Source of the DNA: Gammaproteobacteria bacterium
GTDB taxonomy: Bacteria > Pseudomonadota > Gammaproteobacteria > Pseudomonadales > Pseudohongiellaceae
Reading direction: 5' to 3'
Assembly (NCBI GenBank): GCA_028818225.1
Contig: JAPPOG010000015.1
Location: forward strand, 1-64,000
DNA length: 64,000 nt
Of the stretch, positions 17,920 through 35,077 are shown piece by piece (position 1 is the stretch's first letter; each line of letters begins with the position of its first letter). Made by a program: the position numbers and the translations under genes. Below the pieces are notes generated by a model, which was not told the origin of the DNA, did no database searches, and saw only the letters and a list, made by a program, of their open reading frames with translations.

Positions 17920-19266
17920 CTAGAGATCGCTTAAAGGTTCGGTACTATCGGAAATGCTGGCTACCTGCACATCAACCTTATCTAATAATGATAGACCAAG
18001 GTTCATAAACGGTGTGTGCATTGGATACTTCAGGTGACGTCCGCCTTCCAGTTTGCCACGTCCTCCACCAACCAGGATGACCGGTAAGTTATACGGTGTA
18101 TGGTGGTCACCATCACCCATCCCAGTACCATAGAGCAGTATGCTGTGATCAAGAAGGGTGCCATCGCCATCCTGGGTATTAGCAAGTCGATCTACAAATT
18201 TTGTGAATAGCGACACATGGTGAGTATTAATTCGCGTATATTGCTGAATGTTATGGGGATTCAATTGATGATGTGAGACCGTATGGTGTCCTTCAGGTAC
18301 ACCTATATCAGGATAGGCTCTTCCACTTAATTCCCGTGCCATTTGTAATACACTTACTCGAGTTACATCTGCCTGATAGGCAAGCGCTAACATTTCAAAT
18401 AAAGTATCGACATGCTCTTCGTAGGTTTCGGGAACACCATCCGGTTGTTCTACCGCAGGCAAAGGGCGACTCGCGTTGTTTTGTTCCGTACGCTGAATGC
18501 GCCTTTCGATTTCCCTGACAGCAGTCAGGTATTCGTCCACTACAATTTTATCCCCTTGTCCCAGTTCGTTCTCCAGTTTGCTAATGCTGTCGGAAACTGA
18601 ATCAAGAATACTGCGGTCGGTTTTCATTTGGGCCATGCGAGCTTCGACACTACCACCATCGCCAAATAATCGCTGGAAAACAACCCGTGGATCCCGTTCA
18701 TGGGGTAAAGGTGTAGTAGGAGAACTCCAGGAAGTTGAATTCTGATAGGTACAGCTATAACCGTTTTCACAATTACCAACGGTATAGTTTGAATCGGTAG
18801 TAAGTTGTAATGAACGTAATGAAGTCTCTTGACCTAAAACATCGGCAGCATATTGATCGATAGTCTTTCCTGCTTCTATGTCGGCACCCTCTGTACGTTT
18901 CGGAAGTACGCCACTGAGCCAACCACCGTGGGCACGGGTATGCACACCACCACCTTCGTTTGGACTTACTAATGAACTGTTACTTAGCCCGCTTACCACA
19001 ACCATCTTTTCCCGATAGGATTCCAGTGGCTTAAGTATTGGCGTTATCTGATAGTTTTTTCCACCATCTCCTTGCGGATGAAAGTTGGGGAGAAACATGC
19101 CATTGGGTGCATAGAAGAATCCCAGCCGTGGCGAAGGGCTTGCCGGGGTATTGGCAATGGCAGTCATAGCCGGCACCATAGCGCCGAGAAGTGGCAGAGT
19201 CATCATGGTGCCCATACCGCGCAGCACAGTCCGTCGGGGCAAGGCTTTCTTGGTAATAAAGGTCAT
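17920..19266 (-). CDS. DUF1552 protein with Tat-like signal
   Basis: This is a 448-residue DUF1552-family protein. The N-terminus (PRRTVLRGMG followed by a hydrophobic run) looks like a twin-arginine signal, suggesting export in folded form. Family features visible are the early LGFFYAPNGMFLPNF, HTRAHGGWLSG, VSHHQLNPHN and the late LYGTGMGDGDHHTPYNLPVILVGG, which resembles the alkaline-phosphatase/sulfatase-like fold of the related DUF1501 family. Its start overlaps the stop of the DUF1592 gene by four bases (ATGA), so the two are translationally coupled. The biochemical role is not known. Confidence 0.9.
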   Translation of the reverse strand: MTFITKKALPRRTVLRGMGTMMTLPLLGAMVPAMTAIANTPASPSPRLGFFYAPNGMFLPNFHPQGDGGKNYQITPILKPLESYREKMVVVSGLSNSSLVSPNEGGGVHTRAHGGWLSGVLPKRTEGADIEAGKTIDQYAADVLGQETSLRSLQLTTDSNYTVGNCENGYSCTYQNSTSWSSPTTPLPHERDPRVVFQRLFGDGGSVEARMAQMKTDRSILDSVSDSISKLENELGQGDKIVVDEYLTAVREIERRIQRTEQNNASRPLPAVEQPDGVPETYEEHVDTLFEMLALAYQADVTRVSVLQMARELSGRAYPDIGVPEGHHTVSHHQLNPHNIQQYTRINTHHVSLFTKFVDRLANTQDGDGTLLDHSILLYGTGMGDGDHHTPYNLPVILVGGGRGKLEGGRHLKYPMHTPFMNLGLSLLDKVDVQVASISDSTEPLSDL

Positions 19267-21668
19267 GATTCCGCTCTCCTATGGAGGAAAGGATAGCTGA
19301 CTACTATACCGGTAATAATAGCCTGCATTCCATAATTATTGGCCTCGGCGTCTCGCACAATTTTCCTGACTGCTGGCATATCATAGTACTCCAGGCCACG
19401 GCCCAGGGCATAAGTCATGAGCTTCTCAGTAAAGGTGCTGACGAATCTCTCCGGTTGGGCCACCAGGGCTTGCCGCAGTTCCGCGGCTCCATCAAACGAA
19501 GTCCCATCAGGCAGCACTCCTGAAGTATCGATGCGGTTAAACCATTCGTCTACCTGTCGGTAGCGACCGATAGCATCGAATCCTTCCAGGGCAAATCCGG
19601 CTGGATCGATCATGGTATGGCAGGCAGCACAAACAGGATTAGAGCGGTGAGCCGCCATGCGTTCACGCATAGTCGCGACTCTTGCTGATGTTTTCCTGTC
19701 GTCTAGCGCGGGAATATTCGGTGGCGGATCCGGTGGGGGAGTACCCAAAATATTATCCAGGATCCATTTTCCTCTCAGCACCGGCGATGTGCGAATAGCA
19801 TGGGACGTGAGGGTAAGAATACTGCCATGCCCTAAAAGGCCTTTTCTCGGGCTGTCTTCAGTTAGCTCGACTTTTCGAAAATGGGTGCCCTTGATATTGG
19901 CAATGTCATAGTGGCCGGCAAGCCGTTCATTGAGATAGGTGTAGTCAGCTGTTAACAATTCCAGCACACCTCGGTCTTCTCGCACAACACTGTCGAAAAA
20001 CATTTCTGTTTCGGTAATCATTGCCTGTCGCAGGGTTTCATCGAACGCAACCGCATAGGGCTCGCCGGGTCGTACGATAGTTGCCAGGTTTCTAAGTTGC
20101 AGCCATTGGCCGGCGAAGTTTTGCGTTAATGCCTGCGAGCGCGGATCCGCAACCATGCGTGCAACTTGTTTCTCCAGTTCTGCCGGATTACTTAGTTCGC
20201 CGCGCTCGGCCAGCGCTAATAATTCTTCATCGGGGATAGAAGACCATATAAAGAAAGATAGGCGTGATGCCAATTCAATGTCGGATACCGGATAGGGTGC
20301 CCCCTGCTCAATATCACCAGGGTCGGTTTCTATTCTTACCAGAAATTCCGGACTAACCAGCAGTCTGCGTAAGGCCAACTCAATGCCATCTTCAAAACTT
20401 CCTCCGTCATCACGAGCCATTGAATAAAAGTCTAACAATATCGCAATTTCATATTCGCTTATCGGTCGTTTGTAGGCTTGCCGCGCGAGGTCTGAAAGAA
20501 TCTGTTCGGCACAGTTTGATTCCTCACTGGGATTGGCGGGAGTACAGGTAAATATTTTTGTGCGACTCGGTGTGTTGCCTGTGCTGCGAAAATTAAAAGG
20601 CCCTTCAATCGTTACGCTGCTAACGAATGGCATTGTTCCTAATGGCCCACCTGAATTCCCAGAAGTTCGCGGATTTTCAAACCGTTCGCGAACCTGCTCG
20701 ACTAATGCCGGTGGTCTTCGATAAAAGGCAACACCAACATCCCGGGGTCCGGCAGCTACAGGTACACGCAGATCGATTGTAGATGCGTTGCCAACCTCAA
20801 TTGTTTCAACAGGTACACCGTCGATTGTTATCTCCAGCCTGTGAGTATCTACAACTCCACGCGTTCCACTTAATTGGACAGTAAATTCATAGTCCGCTTC
20901 GACAGGAAACTGATAGGAAACCAACATACCACCACGAGTACCGATTGGAAGGCCGCTTCTGCGGGCATGTTGTTGCTCATCTTGCTGAGTACGAAATGTT
21001 TGAGAGACTGGTGCCGGTGGAGGACTGCCGACAGCAAGTCTGCTAATGGTGCGACTCGCTTCAAGATAACGTTCCATTAAAGATTGCGACATCCGCAATA
21101 CACCACCGATGTTATCGAAGCCATAACTGGCATCGTCGGCTGGCAGAAAGTTATCGACCTCAATATCCAGTGCCAGCAGATCGCGAATGGCATTTTTATA
21201 TTCAGCGCGGTTGAGTCTGTGGAGGGTAGCTTTGCGACCGGGGTTTGGATTAACGGTCGCGGCTATATCCAATTCAGATTGGAGCCACAACCTGAATTGT
21301 TCTAGCTCGGCATCGTTGGGTCTTGGCATGCCAGCAGGTGGCATTAAACCGGCACGCAGTTTCCTCACTACTTTTTCCCAGTGGTCAGCATTTCCGGGAA
21401 CGTCGTTCACATCCAGCGTATCCAGCGCCAGCCCCAGTGCCCGCAGCTGGCTACCGAGCGGGTCGGTTATGGCATCGGGATCGGCATCAATAGTGCGCTG
21501 GTTATGGCAAACCACACAGTACTGATCCACCAGCTGGCGATATTCCTGGCCGCTTTGTGTTTCTGGCTGGGCGCTGCTTGGATTACTGGCAAGAATTAGC
21601 CCGAGCGTTGCAAACGCAGCAATATTGCGGGCTGCAGAGGAAGGACATGATTTAATTTCTAGTGCCAT
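19263..21668 (-). CDS. DUF1592/DUF1588-type exported cytochrome-like protein
   Basis: This 801-residue protein has the modular set DUF1587, DUF1595, DUF1592, DUF1588 and DUF1585, typical of large exported proteins in planctomycetes and marine gammaproteobacteria. The start at 21668 is chosen over the one at 21761 because a signal peptide begins there (ending NPSSAQ) and AGGT lies upstream. A haem-binding motif CVVCH is near residue 53 and a second CxxCH (CAACHTMIDPAG) near residue 678. Other landmarks are LHRLNRAEYKNAIRDLL, SRLSFFIWSSIPDEEL and FAGQWLQLRNL. It heads an operon with the DUF1552 and ankyrin genes. A redox role is likely; the substrate is unknown. Confidence 0.92.
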   Translation of the reverse strand: MALEIKSCPSSAARNIAAFATLGLILASNPSSAQPETQSGQEYRQLVDQYCVVCHNQRTIDADPDAITDPLGSQLRALGLALDTLDVNDVPGNADHWEKVVRKLRAGLMPPAGMPRPNDAELEQFRLWLQSELDIAATVNPNPGRKATLHRLNRAEYKNAIRDLLALDIEVDNFLPADDASYGFDNIGGVLRMSQSLMERYLEASRTISRLAVGSPPPAPVSQTFRTQQDEQQHARRSGLPIGTRGGMLVSYQFPVEADYEFTVQLSGTRGVVDTHRLEITIDGVPVETIEVGNASTIDLRVPVAAGPRDVGVAFYRRPPALVEQVRERFENPRTSGNSGGPLGTMPFVSSVTIEGPFNFRSTGNTPSRTKIFTCTPANPSEESNCAEQILSDLARQAYKRPISEYEIAILLDFYSMARDDGGSFEDGIELALRRLLVSPEFLVRIETDPGDIEQGAPYPVSDIELASRLSFFIWSSIPDEELLALAERGELSNPAELEKQVARMVADPRSQALTQNFAGQWLQLRNLATIVRPGEPYAVAFDETLRQAMITETEMFFDSVVREDRGVLELLTADYTYLNERLAGHYDIANIKGTHFRKVELTEDSPRKGLLGHGSILTLTSHAIRTSPVLRGKWILDNILGTPPPDPPPNIPALDDRKTSARVATMRERMAAHRSNPVCAACHTMIDPAGFALEGFDAIGRYRQVDEWFNRIDTSGVLPDGTSFDGAAELRQALVAQPERFVSTFTEKLMTYALGRGLEYYDMPAVRKIVRDAEANNYGMQAIITGIVVSYPFLHRRAES

Positions 21669-21849
21669 TTTAAGACCTGATTTGGCTTGCCAAGCGGACT
21701 TTACAGGACTTCTTATTCTGCAGAAAACCTTAACAAATTCAGGGTGGTGAAGCATCAACAATTAGCCTTCTGAATTGTGAGAATTTGCAACTTGGCTAGC
21801 TCGTTACTAATCGCAATAGGGTATAGTTAGTGGAACAAGAGCCCACTCC

Positions 21850-26902: not shown

Positions 26903-28024
26903 CTATGCCTGCAATGTATTCGCCGCAGAGGCAAAACGGGTCAGGTCTAATTCTGATCTCACTGATTTACCTAAATCACTCTCCATGTCATCTACAGGTA
27001 TTCCCATCGAATCTGCAATACGTACCATGCGCTGGAAATTGGCCGCTACCCCGGCAGCATCAACTAACACGCTAGCGCCAGCTTGATGCACTAGATTCTG
27101 GCGAGTTTCTTTCAGTAACTCCTGATTGCCCGTAGCGACTGCCTCAGCCAATAACATAAGTTCTTTGCCATAGGGTATTCCCACTGTTGCCGCTTCCTGG
27201 TCGCCATTAACTCCTTGTAGATCTACATCGGTTTTTGTTGTCATTGAGCTCGCACGGAGCATCGAAGAATGTGCGTTAGTTCAGTAAAAGCATTCATTAA
27301 TCGCTGAAACCCTTGCAGCAATGAGTTCCATTTGCATGCGATTGATTGCGCGATCTTCCTGACCAACCAGGTTGGCCATGCCCTCAACCGACAGATAGAT
27401 AGCAGAGCCCAAAGCCAACCAGTCCCGCACAGCTTCTGGTACGAGGGAAAGCGCGCGAATGACATTGGCGTTACGACCATTGGGCCATAAATTTTCCTCC
27501 GGTCCGGTTAATCCTTCTCTTGGTAGCATTGGTACAAAACCAGTACCGGGCTCAGCCTGGGCTGGTCGATAGTTGGACGGCGCTCCTGCAACTGCTTCTG
27601 GTAGGTTTTCCAAATCCAGGCCCAGTGTGCGATGGAATTCATCGATACTGAATACGCACACCACGATGCCGGCTAGTTCTACATAGGCTTCAGTGCTAAT
27701 GCCTGACTGGGGAAGGCTTTCTACCCAGGCTCGAGTAATACGATTCTGGTCGGTAATGATACGATGCACGGCATCAACAGCCGCTGTATCCAATTGTGAA
27801 TCACTATCATGCTCACCAAGAACGTTATAGGGTGAAAGCGCCTGCTTGCGCTCAGCGCAAAAGCTGCAACTTATAGCTGACCGGGTTTCCCTGGCAATGG
27901 CAATTCGTTCCGCGCCAGTCCACCAGGATCCGGGCTGCGCGAGTCGCTGCCAGAATTTAGTAAACTCAGTCTTAATGTCCTCCCGAATCGGGTAAGGAGA
28001 ATCGAGGTATTCAAAAAAGCTCAC
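26903..28024 (-). CDS. AhpD-like (carboxymuconolactone decarboxylase family) candidate selenoprotein, in-frame TGA
   Basis: One frame of 373 codons runs from the GTG at 28024 to 26903, interrupted only by a TGA at 27281-27283 (codon 248). Around it the protein reads MELIAARVSAINECFY-TGA-TNAHSS, which fits the AhpD-family redox site (RVS..N.C.YC...H) with TGA where the second cysteine belongs. The codons after the TGA keep the family look (AHSSMLRASS, then a helical tail to residue 373). An N-terminal half-domain carries another CxxC (C53 and C56). Read as C-F-Y-Sec with H252, it would be a thiol/selenol peroxidase-type protein. It heads the minus-strand operon. Alternatives are a nonsense mutation or sequencing error; two separate genes are unlikely. 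Confidence 0.83.
27242..27271 (-). promoter_or_regulatory. Bacterial-SECIS-like hairpin after the in-frame TGA
   Basis: On the minus strand, counting the T of TGA as 1, CATT (13-16) pairs with AATG (39-42), GA (21-22) with TC (37-38), and GCTC (24-27) with GAGC (33-36). One T is bulged and a CTTC bulge lies on the 5' side. The five-base loop is CGTGC, with G in its second position, starting 24 bases after the TGA. This fits published bacterial SECIS rules (guanine among the first two loop bases, 16-37 bases from the UGA). Folding was done by eye. Confidence 0.6.
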
Positions 28025-28193: not shown

Positions 28194-29159
28194 GTGTCTA
28201 TTCCTGATTGTATGCAAGGACGCTTGTCGATTCCTGCAGTGGGTGCACCGCTATTTATTATTTCTAACCCTGATCTGGTTATTGCCCAATGTAAGGCAGG
28301 GGTAGTGGGGTCATTTCCTGCATTAAATGCCCGGCCAGTTGAGGTGCTGGAGGAGTGGCTGATTCGCATCAACGAAGAACTGGATGCGCACAATCAGGCA
28401 AATCCGGACAATCCCGCGGCGCCTTACGCTGTTAATCAAATAGTCCATGGGTCCAATGACAGGCTTATGCATGATGTTGAACTCTGTGTTAAATATAAAG
28501 TGCCAGTTGTCATTACATCTTTGGGAGCAAGACCGGAAGTATTCGATGCCATTCATTCCTATGGCGGCATTTGTTTACATGATGTCATCAATAATCGTTT
28601 TGCCCACAAGGCCATAGAGAAAGGCGCAGATGGATTAATCTGCGTTGCTGCCGGAGCAGGAGGGCATGCCGGGACGCTTTCACCAATGGCCTTTATTCAG
28701 GAAGTGAGGGAATGGTTTGACGGGCCAATACTTTTATCCGGTGCAATTTCGACCGGCGATGGCGTCCTTGCTGCGCTCGCTATGGGAGCTGATCTTGCCT
28801 ATATAGGCTCGGCCTTTATTGCCACGGAAGAAGCCAATGCGGATCCCAGGTATAAACAGGCGTTGGTAGATTATGCGGCATCGGATATTGTTTACACCAA
28901 TCTTTTTACTGGTGTACATGGAAACTACTTAAAACCCTCTATTGAGGCTGCCGGACTTGACCCCAATGATTTGCCGGAAAGCGATCCTTCGAAAATGCAG
29001 TTTGGCTCCGGAGGCAGCAGTAAATCCAAAGCCTGGAAGGATATCTGGGGTTGCGGACAGGGAATTAATGCAATCAAGTCGGTAGTGCCAGCAGGCGAAT
29101 TGGTTGAACGATTGAGAAAGGAGTATGAGGCAGCACAGCGTCGGGTGCTTGCCGCCTGA
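28194..29159 (+). CDS. Nitronate monooxygenase (2-nitropropane dioxygenase family)
   Basis: This FMN-dependent TIM-barrel enzyme of the nitronate monooxygenase family has 321 residues and no signal, so it is cytoplasmic. The GTG start has AGAGGA eight bases upstream. Family motifs are the early APLFIISNPDLVIAQCKAG, AGAGGHAG (the glycine/histidine loop at the FMN/active site), PILLSGAISTGDGVLAALAMGAD and IGSAF. It oxidises alkyl nitronates or related toxic nitro compounds. A role as an enoyl-ACP reductase of the FabK type is possible but less likely. It is transcribed away from the candidate selenoprotein operon and shares the 170-base divergent promoter region with it. Confidence 0.92.
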   Translation: MSIPDCMQGRLSIPAVGAPLFIISNPDLVIAQCKAGVVGSFPALNARPVEVLEEWLIRINEELDAHNQANPDNPAAPYAVNQIVHGSNDRLMHDVELCVKYKVPVVITSLGARPEVFDAIHSYGGICLHDVINNRFAHKAIEKGADGLICVAAGAGGHAGTLSPMAFIQEVREWFDGPILLSGAISTGDGVLAALAMGADLAYIGSAFIATEEANADPRYKQALVDYAASDIVYTNLFTGVHGNYLKPSIEAAGLDPNDLPESDPSKMQFGSGGSSKSKAWKDIWGCGQGINAIKSVVPAGELVERLRKEYEAAQRRVLAA

Positions 29160-32585: not shown

Positions 32586-33428
32586 ATGAGAAAAAGACTA
32601 ATAATTCCTTCAATTGTATTTTTGCTTGCCAGTGTCCATGTGGCCGCACAGGATGCCCGGCCAGAAATTGAAATCGCCAATCCGAACGCAATGTTTTTGC
32701 AGCAGCAGAGGGCCTTACCGCCAGCGGAAGTCATTGAGCGGGGCGAGACTCTGTACCAGGTGAACTGCCGACTCTGTCATGGGCCAGACTTGAGAGGTGG
32801 TGACCAGGGAGGGTCAAATCTGTTGCGTTCAGATGTAGTGCTGGTAGATATAGCCGGTGAATCCATTGGTCAGGTGATCACGGAAGGCCAGGGTAGCATG
32901 CCGACTTTTAATCAATTCAGTAGCGATGATATCGCTGCCATCGCAGGCTACATTCATTCAATCAAATTCGATTCGGAAGGCCAGGGCAGCACGCCCCCTG
33001 TTGACTTCGATCTCGACATACTGGTTGGAAATGCTGATGCCGGTGAACGATTTTTCAACCAGGAATGTGCCAGTTGCCATTCTGTGACCGGGGACCTCAG
33101 TGGCATCGCTACTCGGATTCCGGATGATTACATCATGCAGAATACCTGGGTTGCAGGGGGAAGAAGGCAGGCCGGGCGAGGCGGTGCTCAGTCTACTGTT
33201 ACGGTATCAACAGCTGCTGGCGAAACTATCTCCGGCCGTTTGCTGCGCTATGACGATTTTTTTGTAAGTTTACGAACCGAAGAAGGTGCTTATCGCAGTT
33301 TTACCCGACGTGGAGATTCACCAGCGGTGGAACTGGATGATCCACTTTATCGCCATAGGGAGCTTTGGTCAGAATTGAGTGATAGCACCATTCACGATGT
33401 AACAGCCTACCTGGAGACAATAAAATGA
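32586..33428 (+). CDS. Exported dihaem cytochrome c
   Basis: This 280-residue periplasmic cytochrome has a signal peptide (cleavage near HVAAQ) and two haem c motifs: CRLCH near residue 60 and CASCH near residue 160. Axial methionine candidates are in QGSMPTFNQFSSDDIAAIAGY and later methionines. A C-terminal stretch (TVTVSTAAGETISGRLLRYDDFFVSL) is a beta domain seen in cytochromes that partner PQQ dehydrogenases. Its stop overlaps the start of the PQQ dehydrogenase by four bases (ATGA). It is therefore probably the direct electron acceptor of that enzyme. Confidence 0.93.
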   Translation: MRKRLIIPSIVFLLASVHVAAQDARPEIEIANPNAMFLQQQRALPPAEVIERGETLYQVNCRLCHGPDLRGGDQGGSNLLRSDVVLVDIAGESIGQVITEGQGSMPTFNQFSSDDIAAIAGYIHSIKFDSEGQGSTPPVDFDLDILVGNADAGERFFNQECASCHSVTGDLSGIATRIPDDYIMQNTWVAGGRRQAGRGGAQSTVTVSTAAGETISGRLLRYDDFFVSLRTEEGAYRSFTRRGDSPAVELDDPLYRHRELWSELSDSTIHDVTAYLETIK

Positions 33429-35077
33429 GATATCTGACCCTTTTTATTGCGCAACTGTTTATTGCAACTGTATCAATTGCACAGGTTGTTGATCCGGCGG
33501 ATATAGCCAATGCCCTGGATGGAGATTGGGATACTTATTCAGGGGATTATTCAGGAAGGCGTTTCAGCAGTCTAACTCAAGTACATAAAGAAAACGTTTC
33601 GGACTTAACCCTGGCCTGGACTACCGAAGTTAATTTCAATGTGCGAAGGGGAAACATAGCCGGCACTGGCATAGTTACTCAAATGGGCGGCGAAGGCCGC
33701 GGCGATATTGATATTAGGAGTGGCTCAATCAAAGGATCCATTCTCGAAGTTAATGGCATTCTCTTTGTCACTGCGCCGGACCATGTCTGGGCCATGGATG
33801 CGCGGGATGGCAGTGAAATCTGGCATTACCATTGGGAAACTCGCGGTGGAACTCACATCGCTAATCGCGGTGTGGCCATCTGGAATGATTCGGTAATCTT
33901 CGAAACGCCGGACAATTATCTCGTATCTTTAGATGCGTACACCGGCGAAGAAAACTGGCACAGCGAAATCGCCCCATTTGAGTTGCAATATTTTTCAACC
34001 ATGGCGCCTATCACCATACGTGATCGTGTCATTGTTGGTACCGGCAATGATCTCGATCAGCCTGGATTCCTGCAGGCATTCGATGCAGCAACAGGTGAAC
34101 TCATCTGGCGTTTTTATACGGTTCCCATGAGTGAAGATGATCCCGGCATCGAAACCTGGCCAAACCTGGATGCTGCTAGTCACGGTGGCGGCAATGCCTG
34201 GGTGCCGGGTGTCTATGATCCGGAAACGGATCTTTATATTTTTGGTACTGGCAATCCAACGCCGGGATACACCGGTGTTGCCAGGAGAGGAGATAACCTG
34301 TTCACCTGTTCACTGGTTGCGGTCAATGTAACAACCGGAGAATTGGAGTGGTACTTCCAGACCTCACCCCATGACACTCATGATTGGGATTCGGCGCAAA
34401 CACCAATCCTCATCGATGGTGTGATAGATGGACAACCGCGCAAACTGGTTTCTACCGCTGCCCGCAATGGTTTCTTCTTTACTGTCGACCGAGTTACCGG
34501 TGAGCACATCGTTACCAATAAATATTCCCGCACCGCTAATTGGTATTCCCATGTCAGGGAAACAGGCGAGCCGGAACCGAATCCTGATAAAGAAGCACTG
34601 ATTCCCGGCACCCTGGTTTCCCCAGTAGAAGGCGGTGTCGCTAACTGGCAACCACCGGCATTTAATCCTGAGTATGGGCTTTTCTACACCCAGGAAAACA
34701 ATGGTTTTAATATGCTCTACCTGTCTGATCCTGATCCAAGAGGATCAATGGGACTGGGTGGAAAGATTCGTGCCGAAGTAGGCTCCATAGACAGTGCCTT
34801 TCAGGCCATCGACTATCGAACCGGCGAAGCGGTTTGGCGTCACGAATGGCCTGGAGGGGGTGGCGTAAATGCCGGCGTACTAACAACTGCGACTGGTCTG
34901 GTCTTTACTGGTGACGGACGCAACAACCTGGTGGCCTTTGATGGAGTCAATGGTGATCTACTGTGGCATACCCGCATCGGTAACATAAGTAATGCACCTC
35001 AAACCTTTATGGTAGATGGTCGGCAGTATTTACTGGTTGCAGTCAGAGAAAGATTGTTTGCATTCGTCATGTATTAA
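33425..35077 (+). CDS. PQQ-dependent quinoprotein dehydrogenase (copy 3, short form)
   Basis: This PQQ-propeller dehydrogenase (550 residues) has a signal peptide ending TVSIAQ, the opening WDTYSGDYSGRRFSSLTQVH, and blades such as MDARDGSEIWHYHW, FDAATGELIWRFYTVP and DTHDWDSAQTPIL. It lacks the adjacent cysteines of copies 1 and 2 and is about 100 residues shorter, so it forms a different subfamily from the others here. It is translationally coupled to the dihaem cytochrome c, which suggests an alcohol- or sugar-dehydrogenase/cytochrome pair in the periplasm. The substrate is unknown, though the Gfo/Idh and transporter neighbours point to a polyol or sugar derivative. Confidence 0.92.
   Translation: MRYLTLFIAQLFIATVSIAQVVDPADIANALDGDWDTYSGDYSGRRFSSLTQVHKENVSDLTLAWTTEVNFNVRRGNIAGTGIVTQMGGEGRGDIDIRSGSIKGSILEVNGILFVTAPDHVWAMDARDGSEIWHYHWETRGGTHIANRGVAIWNDSVIFETPDNYLVSLDAYTGEENWHSEIAPFELQYFSTMAPITIRDRVIVGTGNDLDQPGFLQAFDAATGELIWRFYTVPMSEDDPGIETWPNLDAASHGGGNAWVPGVYDPETDLYIFGTGNPTPGYTGVARRGDNLFTCSLVAVNVTTGELEWYFQTSPHDTHDWDSAQTPILIDGVIDGQPRKLVSTAARNGFFFTVDRVTGEHIVTNKYSRTANWYSHVRETGEPEPNPDKEALIPGTLVSPVEGGVANWQPPAFNPEYGLFYTQENNGFNMLYLSDPDPRGSMGLGGKIRAEVGSIDSAFQAIDYRTGEAVWRHEWPGGGGVNAGVLTTATGLVFTGDGRNNLVAFDGVNGDLLWHTRIGNISNAPQTFMVDGRQYLLVAVRERLFAFVMY

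Follow-up and report, generated by a model that had tools for sequence, protein, structure and literature searches.

The gene at 26903..28024 on the minus strand of the window (the whole 64,000-nucleotide stretch of DNA that we analysed) very likely encodes a real selenoprotein, judging from its sequence, and is a member of the NCBIfam family NF041238. Our full reading, to which we assign a probability of about 95%, is of a 373-residue NF041238 selenoprotein in which UGA at codon 248 would be decoded as selenocysteine (Sec) by SelB and tRNA-Sec, aided by a short hairpin in the coding sequence just downstream, and whose chain most likely consists of two AhpD-like units joined together. The sequences establish the Sec machinery, a conserved UGA, codon constraint that coincides with a hairpin, and conserved motifs. 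The case illustrates that reading raw sequence can reveal a very likely selenoprotein where plain ORF calling gives two separate pieces.

Reading frame and family

26903..28024, minus strand: whole gene of the very likely selenoprotein, with a GTG start, a single in-frame TGA read as Sec and a TAG stop; 373 aa; NF041238 match of 464 bits
27281..27283, minus strand: predicted Sec codon TGA, residue 248, in CFYU; from the frame reading and the conservation of the TGA in relatives
27269..27292, minus strand: C-terminal motif C245-F-Y-U248-T-N-A-H252; C245, Y247, U248 and H252 in 38/38 proteins; aligns with the CxxC...H of solved AhpD-like proteins
27857..27868, minus strand: N-terminal CxxC (C53, C56); in 38/38 proteins

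The GTG start is plausible because several relatives start at the same place (L022 with VTFFDY, L040 with MTFFDY and L026 with MSIFSY). After the TGA at codon 248 there are 125 sense codons before a TAG at 26903-26905 (minus strand), and the read-through translation has U at position 248 within NECFYUTNAH. An earlier note on this DNA had described a single TGA at 27281-27283 with the frame open for 125 more codons to 26903, and had held that plain gene calling would yield pieces of 247 and 119 residues. The frame reading bears out the first statement, and the ORF list the second, with one ORF of 247 aa (28024-27281) and another of 119 aa (27262-26903). This division speaks for a rival reading in which translation ends at the TGA, either as a normal stop codon or through gene decay, so that the product is cut short at 247 residues and the remainder is dead sequence. 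A random stretch of 125 codons would be open with a chance of about 0.0009 at the given base composition; we consider homology to be far stronger evidence for read-through than this open-frame probability.

In an hmmscan search of NCBIfam, the read-through protein matches NF041238 (AhpD_rel_CFYUT, 'alkylhydroperoxidase-related (seleno)protein') with an E-value of 3.1e-139 and 464.2 bits (cut-off 175), spanning model positions 1-357 of 357, and it carries the CFYUT motif of that family as C245-F-Y-U248-T. The piece before the TGA alone matches positions 1-238 (E 1.1e-93) and the piece after it alone matches positions 246-357 (E 1.2e-32), so that the two adjoin on the model and the residues downstream of the TGA are family-like, as had been noticed from the sequence. 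The Pfam CMD domain (PF02627) scores 26.5 bits over a cut-off of 23 and is seen only when the TGA is read through, and the AhpD core domain (TIGR00778) scores 29.0 bits over a cut-off of 27.8. The original proposal of an AhpD-like selenoprotein is thus supported and can be refined: the protein belongs to NF041238, which NCBIfam already names a (seleno)protein, and not to AhpD proper (TIGR00777), for which it scores 21.1 bits against a cut-off of 191.95. Membership in the peroxidase-related enzymes of TIGR01926 was also rejected (40.9 bits, under the cut-off of 81.8).

A 2026 review (PMC13188914) gives NF041238 as 'AhpD-related protein (hypothetical protein 1, Sargasso Sea metagenome)' with CxxU, and PMC9312934 lists hypothetical protein 1 with CxxU. 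The Sargasso Sea paper of 2005 (PMC1088965) bases hypothetical protein 1 on four sequences that carry a CXXU motif, includes its name in a figure on predicted SECIS elements, and tabulates Cys homologues of it according to the paper's own definition. The window's protein has the same full-model match, CFYUT motif and CxxU, and we found no feature that distinguishes this copy from the rest of NF041238. The selenoprotein reading of the family is already established computationally, and the gene is a further member, not a new kind. A limited literature search found no bench proof of Sec in the NF041238 family, and 'CFYUT' was not found in the literature searched.

Conservation of the TGA and selenocysteine machinery

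A scan of genome contigs fetched 21 loci. All 20 relatives that cover the site have TGA there, at identities down to 55%; two of the 20 (L023 and L024) come from a single assembly, on separate contigs. Among 390 genomes of the order, 17 carry the family, with 19 matches over the cut-off, the window's gene included; two of the genomes (G643 and G440) have two such copies each. All 19 matches are full-length or nearly so and have exactly one TGA, at identities down to 33%, and no full-length form of the family without the TGA was found in the 390 genomes. Relaxing the threshold to 1e-10 adds 27 matches of 42-57 bits, which start at model position 136 or later and have no stop. One of these weaker matches, the one whose site residue was read, is a paralogue in the window's own genome that has Cys there (HCIYCVVAH). 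Together with the aligned solved proteins 6k40, 3c1l and 2pfx, it confirms the expectation of a cysteine at this position in related AhpD-type proteins.

Across 38 aligned proteins, C53, C56 and H252 are invariant. C245, Y247 and the TGA at 248 are also present in 38/38, a count to be read in the light of the genes having been located via the pattern C-[FY]-Y-TGA, which was absent from none of the 39 loci tried. The 38 take in both contigs of the one assembly (L023 and L024) and a pair with identical site sequence (L035 and L045). The remaining locus, L039, was left out by the length limit owing to an additional in-frame TGA at its codon 147, a position at which glycine is the usual residue among relatives; its Sec site reads NECFYUTSAH. 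The extra TGA is perhaps an error or the mark of a damaged copy.

The L039 case is the other point in favour of an ordinary stop or decay. Against that reading, the TGA sits at the same codon in the 20/20 site-covering relatives and in full-length matches down to 33% identity, the protein is conserved on either side of it, His252 is kept downstream, and synonymous sites are frozen just after it. We regard a stop or decay event as very improbable. Sequencing or assembly error at 27281-27283 might be suspected in a genome that is an 89-contig assembly; the same TGA occurs in other assemblies, and error is very unlikely because the TGA is found in all 20 site-covering relatives and all 19 over-cut-off matches (one of which is the window's gene), which leaves this explanation more remote still.

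The earlier note had asked for selA, selB, selC and selD in the genome, and all are found. The tRNA-Sec (selC) is on contig C28, with 62.4 bits against a gathering score of 47 and the anticodon tca by ARAGORN; selB (398 bits) and selA (582 bits) are on contig C17, and selD (281 bits) is on contig C28 inside a longer frame, all three over their cut-offs. The tRNA-Sec search at E 0.001 fires in 14/14 control genomes and exceeds the cut-off in 5; because it fires in all of the controls, we count rows below the cut-off as no evidence. The longer frame has 788 residues (L018, 1393-3759, minus strand), selD being its C-terminal part, and its N-terminal region looks NADH dehydrogenase-like by eye; PMC2398784 makes mention of Ndh-SelD fusions.

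Genomes of the order with the gene have both SelA and SelB in 17/17 cases. Among 20 compared genomes without it, SelB is present in 11 and SelA in 10 (Fisher p 0.0015 for SelB and 0.0006 for SelA, kinship ignored); these 20 are related genomes, those listed out of 373, and not a random draw. At the level of E 1e-30 or better, the family is found in 1 of 369 genomes sampled from the class and 1 of 398 sampled from the phylum, in both cases the window's own. None of the other close genomes listed, 7 from the same genus and 9 from the same family, carries the gene, and its distribution near the window's genome is therefore patchy. SelB is present in 11 of these 16 genomes, and all 7 of the same genus have SelB yet no gene.

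A last alternative is an altered genetic code or a suppressor tRNA that would have the TGA read as a different amino acid, for example Trp. It would also leave the frame open, and is about as remote as sequencing error given a genome with tRNA-Sec, SelA, SelB and SelD and given the Cys at the site in relatives outside the family.

A SECIS-like hairpin after the TGA

27248..27260, minus strand: SECIS-like hairpin GCUC-CGUGC-GAGC; from RNAalifold, pairing conservation and the synonymous freeze of codons 256-259

The codons just after the TGA are unusually constrained at synonymous sites. We scored codon identity in 20 aligned genes at 232 columns with a shared degenerate residue, ignoring kinship. 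Codons 256-259 are four of the five most constrained columns, with z from 12.6 to 20.3; the codons are CTC at 256 (19/20), CGT at 257 (19/19), GCG at 258 (13/13) and AGC at 259 (19/20). The remaining one of the five is Tyr247, directly before the TGA, with TAC in 19/20 (z 12.1). The best window of 14 codons has a mean z of 9.4, compared with 0.56 for the median window.

The only helix that RNAalifold finds, on 20 and on 38 sequences alike, is GCUC/GAGC with a 5-nt loop, and it overlies codons 256-259. Across 37 distinct rows, pairing holds in 98.6% of cells, compared with 28-62% when the partners are slid, and the outer pair is broken in 2 of the 37 rows. Covariation is slight, consisting of a single compensatory pair in one sequence; the pairing and change counts are equalled in 23/500 shuffles and the covariation score in 303/500. 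The smaller set of 20 has no double change in the hairpin.

The bSECIS model of PMC13188914 has a loop of 3-9 nt, a stem of 4-16 bp, a G in the first two loop positions and 16-37 nt from the UGA, together with a minimum free energy of at most -7.5 kcal/mol. The hairpin has a 5-nt loop (CGUGC), a 4-bp stem, a G at loop position 2 and 24 nt from the UGA to the apical loop, and so agrees in loop, stem, G and spacing with three of the four constraints; the energy does not clearly reach the limit. The 48 nt from the TGA have a folding energy of -7.1 kcal/mol, which falls just short of -7.5 and is not unusually low relative to synonymous resamples (z +0.43); over 21 sequences the mean energy z is -0.37, and 1/21 falls below 5%. 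The lowest-energy folds of the first 48 and 60 nt (-7.1) and of 80 nt (-10.6) use another pairing. The hairpin does form when 90 nt are folded from a point 30 nt ahead of the TGA (-12.5 kcal/mol). By itself it has -3.3 to -5.7 kcal/mol, the lower value with two flanking pairs. We weigh the codon constraint above the energy because a 4-bp hairpin contributes little energy. An Rfam scan of the window returned no match at the gathering threshold. The gene adds a member to NF041238 with two handles for the bench: this short, highly conserved SECIS-like hairpin, and the further CxxC, likewise invariant, of an apparent fused AhpD-like unit.

Two probable AhpD-type units and possible chemistry

27503..28024, minus strand: N-terminal half, a probable helical unit of divergent AhpD-like type; model of the half alone with pLDDT 84.3, and Foldseek
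26906..27502, minus strand: C-terminal half, AhpD/CMD-type unit with the predicted Sec; PF02627 and TIGR00778 over cut-off, and solved AhpD-like proteins by sequence and fold

Judging from models and motifs, two AhpD-type units are probably fused in this chain, and the second of them has the Sec site. The AlphaFold2 model of the whole chain, built from 20 sequences, has pLDDT 87.4 and pTM 0.89. Its best PDB matches by Foldseek are AhpD-like (2prr, 6k40, 3c1l and Bmp8), with probability 1.00 and E from 0.02 to 0.09. For the N-terminal half alone, ranks 1-15 are all AhpD-like or peroxidase-related, with E from 0.010 to 0.27, TM of about 0.5 and rmsd of 8-9. Neither Foldseek search has a match at E 0.001 or better, the best being 0.019 for the whole chain and 0.010 for the N-terminal half.

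That the N-terminal half has its own CxxC had been seen in the sequence, and C53 and C56 are indeed present. A profile comparison of the halves pairs the two CxxC sites in register, weakly (E 0.039, probability 1.3%). In the model, with short helices omitted, the N-terminal unit has helices at 15-28, 37-52, 54-62, 80-91, 98-107 and 111-134, with the CxxC at 53, and the C-terminal unit has helices at 196-209, 229-242, 246-263, 286-298, 301-315 and 317-340, with the CxxU at 245; the order of helices around the two sites is parallel. The His position of the C-terminal unit is Lys in the N-terminal unit in 31/38 proteins.

The C-terminal half aligns with solved proteins of TIGR01926 and TIGR00778 (6k40, 3c1l, 2prr and 2pfx), the CxxC...H included, which bears out the assignment of the TGA in CFY-U-TNAH to the second redox position of an AhpD-type CxxC...H. 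Those proteins, unlike the window's, are single units of about 190 residues, and the three that were aligned (6k40, 3c1l and 2pfx) have Cys at the site. The Bmp8 debrominase (6ohi, 6ohj) has the AhpD-like fold in common with the window's protein (Foldseek rank 7, E 0.069) in a shorter chain of 187 residues, and the likeness concerns the fold. Sestrins are two fused AhpD-like units with the active motif in the N-terminal one. Among the best 50 of 160 matches, those to Sestrin2 (5t0n, 9lvj), at ranks 13, 14 and 18, cover the greater part of the two-unit chain, but the scores are weak (E 0.2 to 0.6, TM 0.38-0.44, rmsd 11.6-14.4), and sestrin is a eukaryotic regulator.

The presence of CxxU...H in a unit of AhpD type suggests that peroxides or related substrates are reduced by thiol/selenol chemistry. 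The C-terminal Cys-x-x-Sec...His site would probably use its selenol to reduce a small molecule, either a peroxide or some other oxidised or halogenated compound, a Cys-Sec bond would form there after the reduction, and the invariant N-terminal CxxC dithiol would probably hand electrons to that bond or make a second site. A more specific version, a sestrin-like fused double-AhpD selenoenzyme in which the N-terminal dithiol reduces the Cys-Sec bond of its own chain and Cys could not take the place of Sec, we offer tentatively and hold to be rather unlikely as a whole; its last element is suggested because the TGA is in all 19 full-length matches in the 390 genomes and SelA and SelB are in all 17 holders.

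The neighbours indicate no clear substrate: they are nitronate-monooxygenase-like, metallo-beta-lactamase superfamily, PQQ-type dehydrogenase and amidohydrolase genes. We compared ORFs of at least 110 aa in flanks of at most 3 kb (about 1.5 kb for L043-L060, with L045 excluded) and found no conserved operon. The divergent neighbour at 28194-29159 (plus strand), nitronate-monooxygenase-like (PF03060), is kept near the gene in L022-L025, and we draw no functional link to it because it is common only to these. In one genome (G379, contig 321, 378-5150), a single case, about 350 bases separate the family gene from selA downstream of it; selB comes next, and the three genes share a strand. Contig C5 of the window's genome encodes an ordinary Cys-type peroxidase-related protein (TIGR01926, 203 bits). 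Elsewhere in the window, 19263-21761 (minus strand) encodes a protein of 832 residues that carries PSD2-5 and PSCyt3, domains whose function is unknown, and 33425-35077 (plus strand) encodes a member of the 'acido-empty-quinoprotein group A' (TIGR04528), with 700 bits, over the cut-off.
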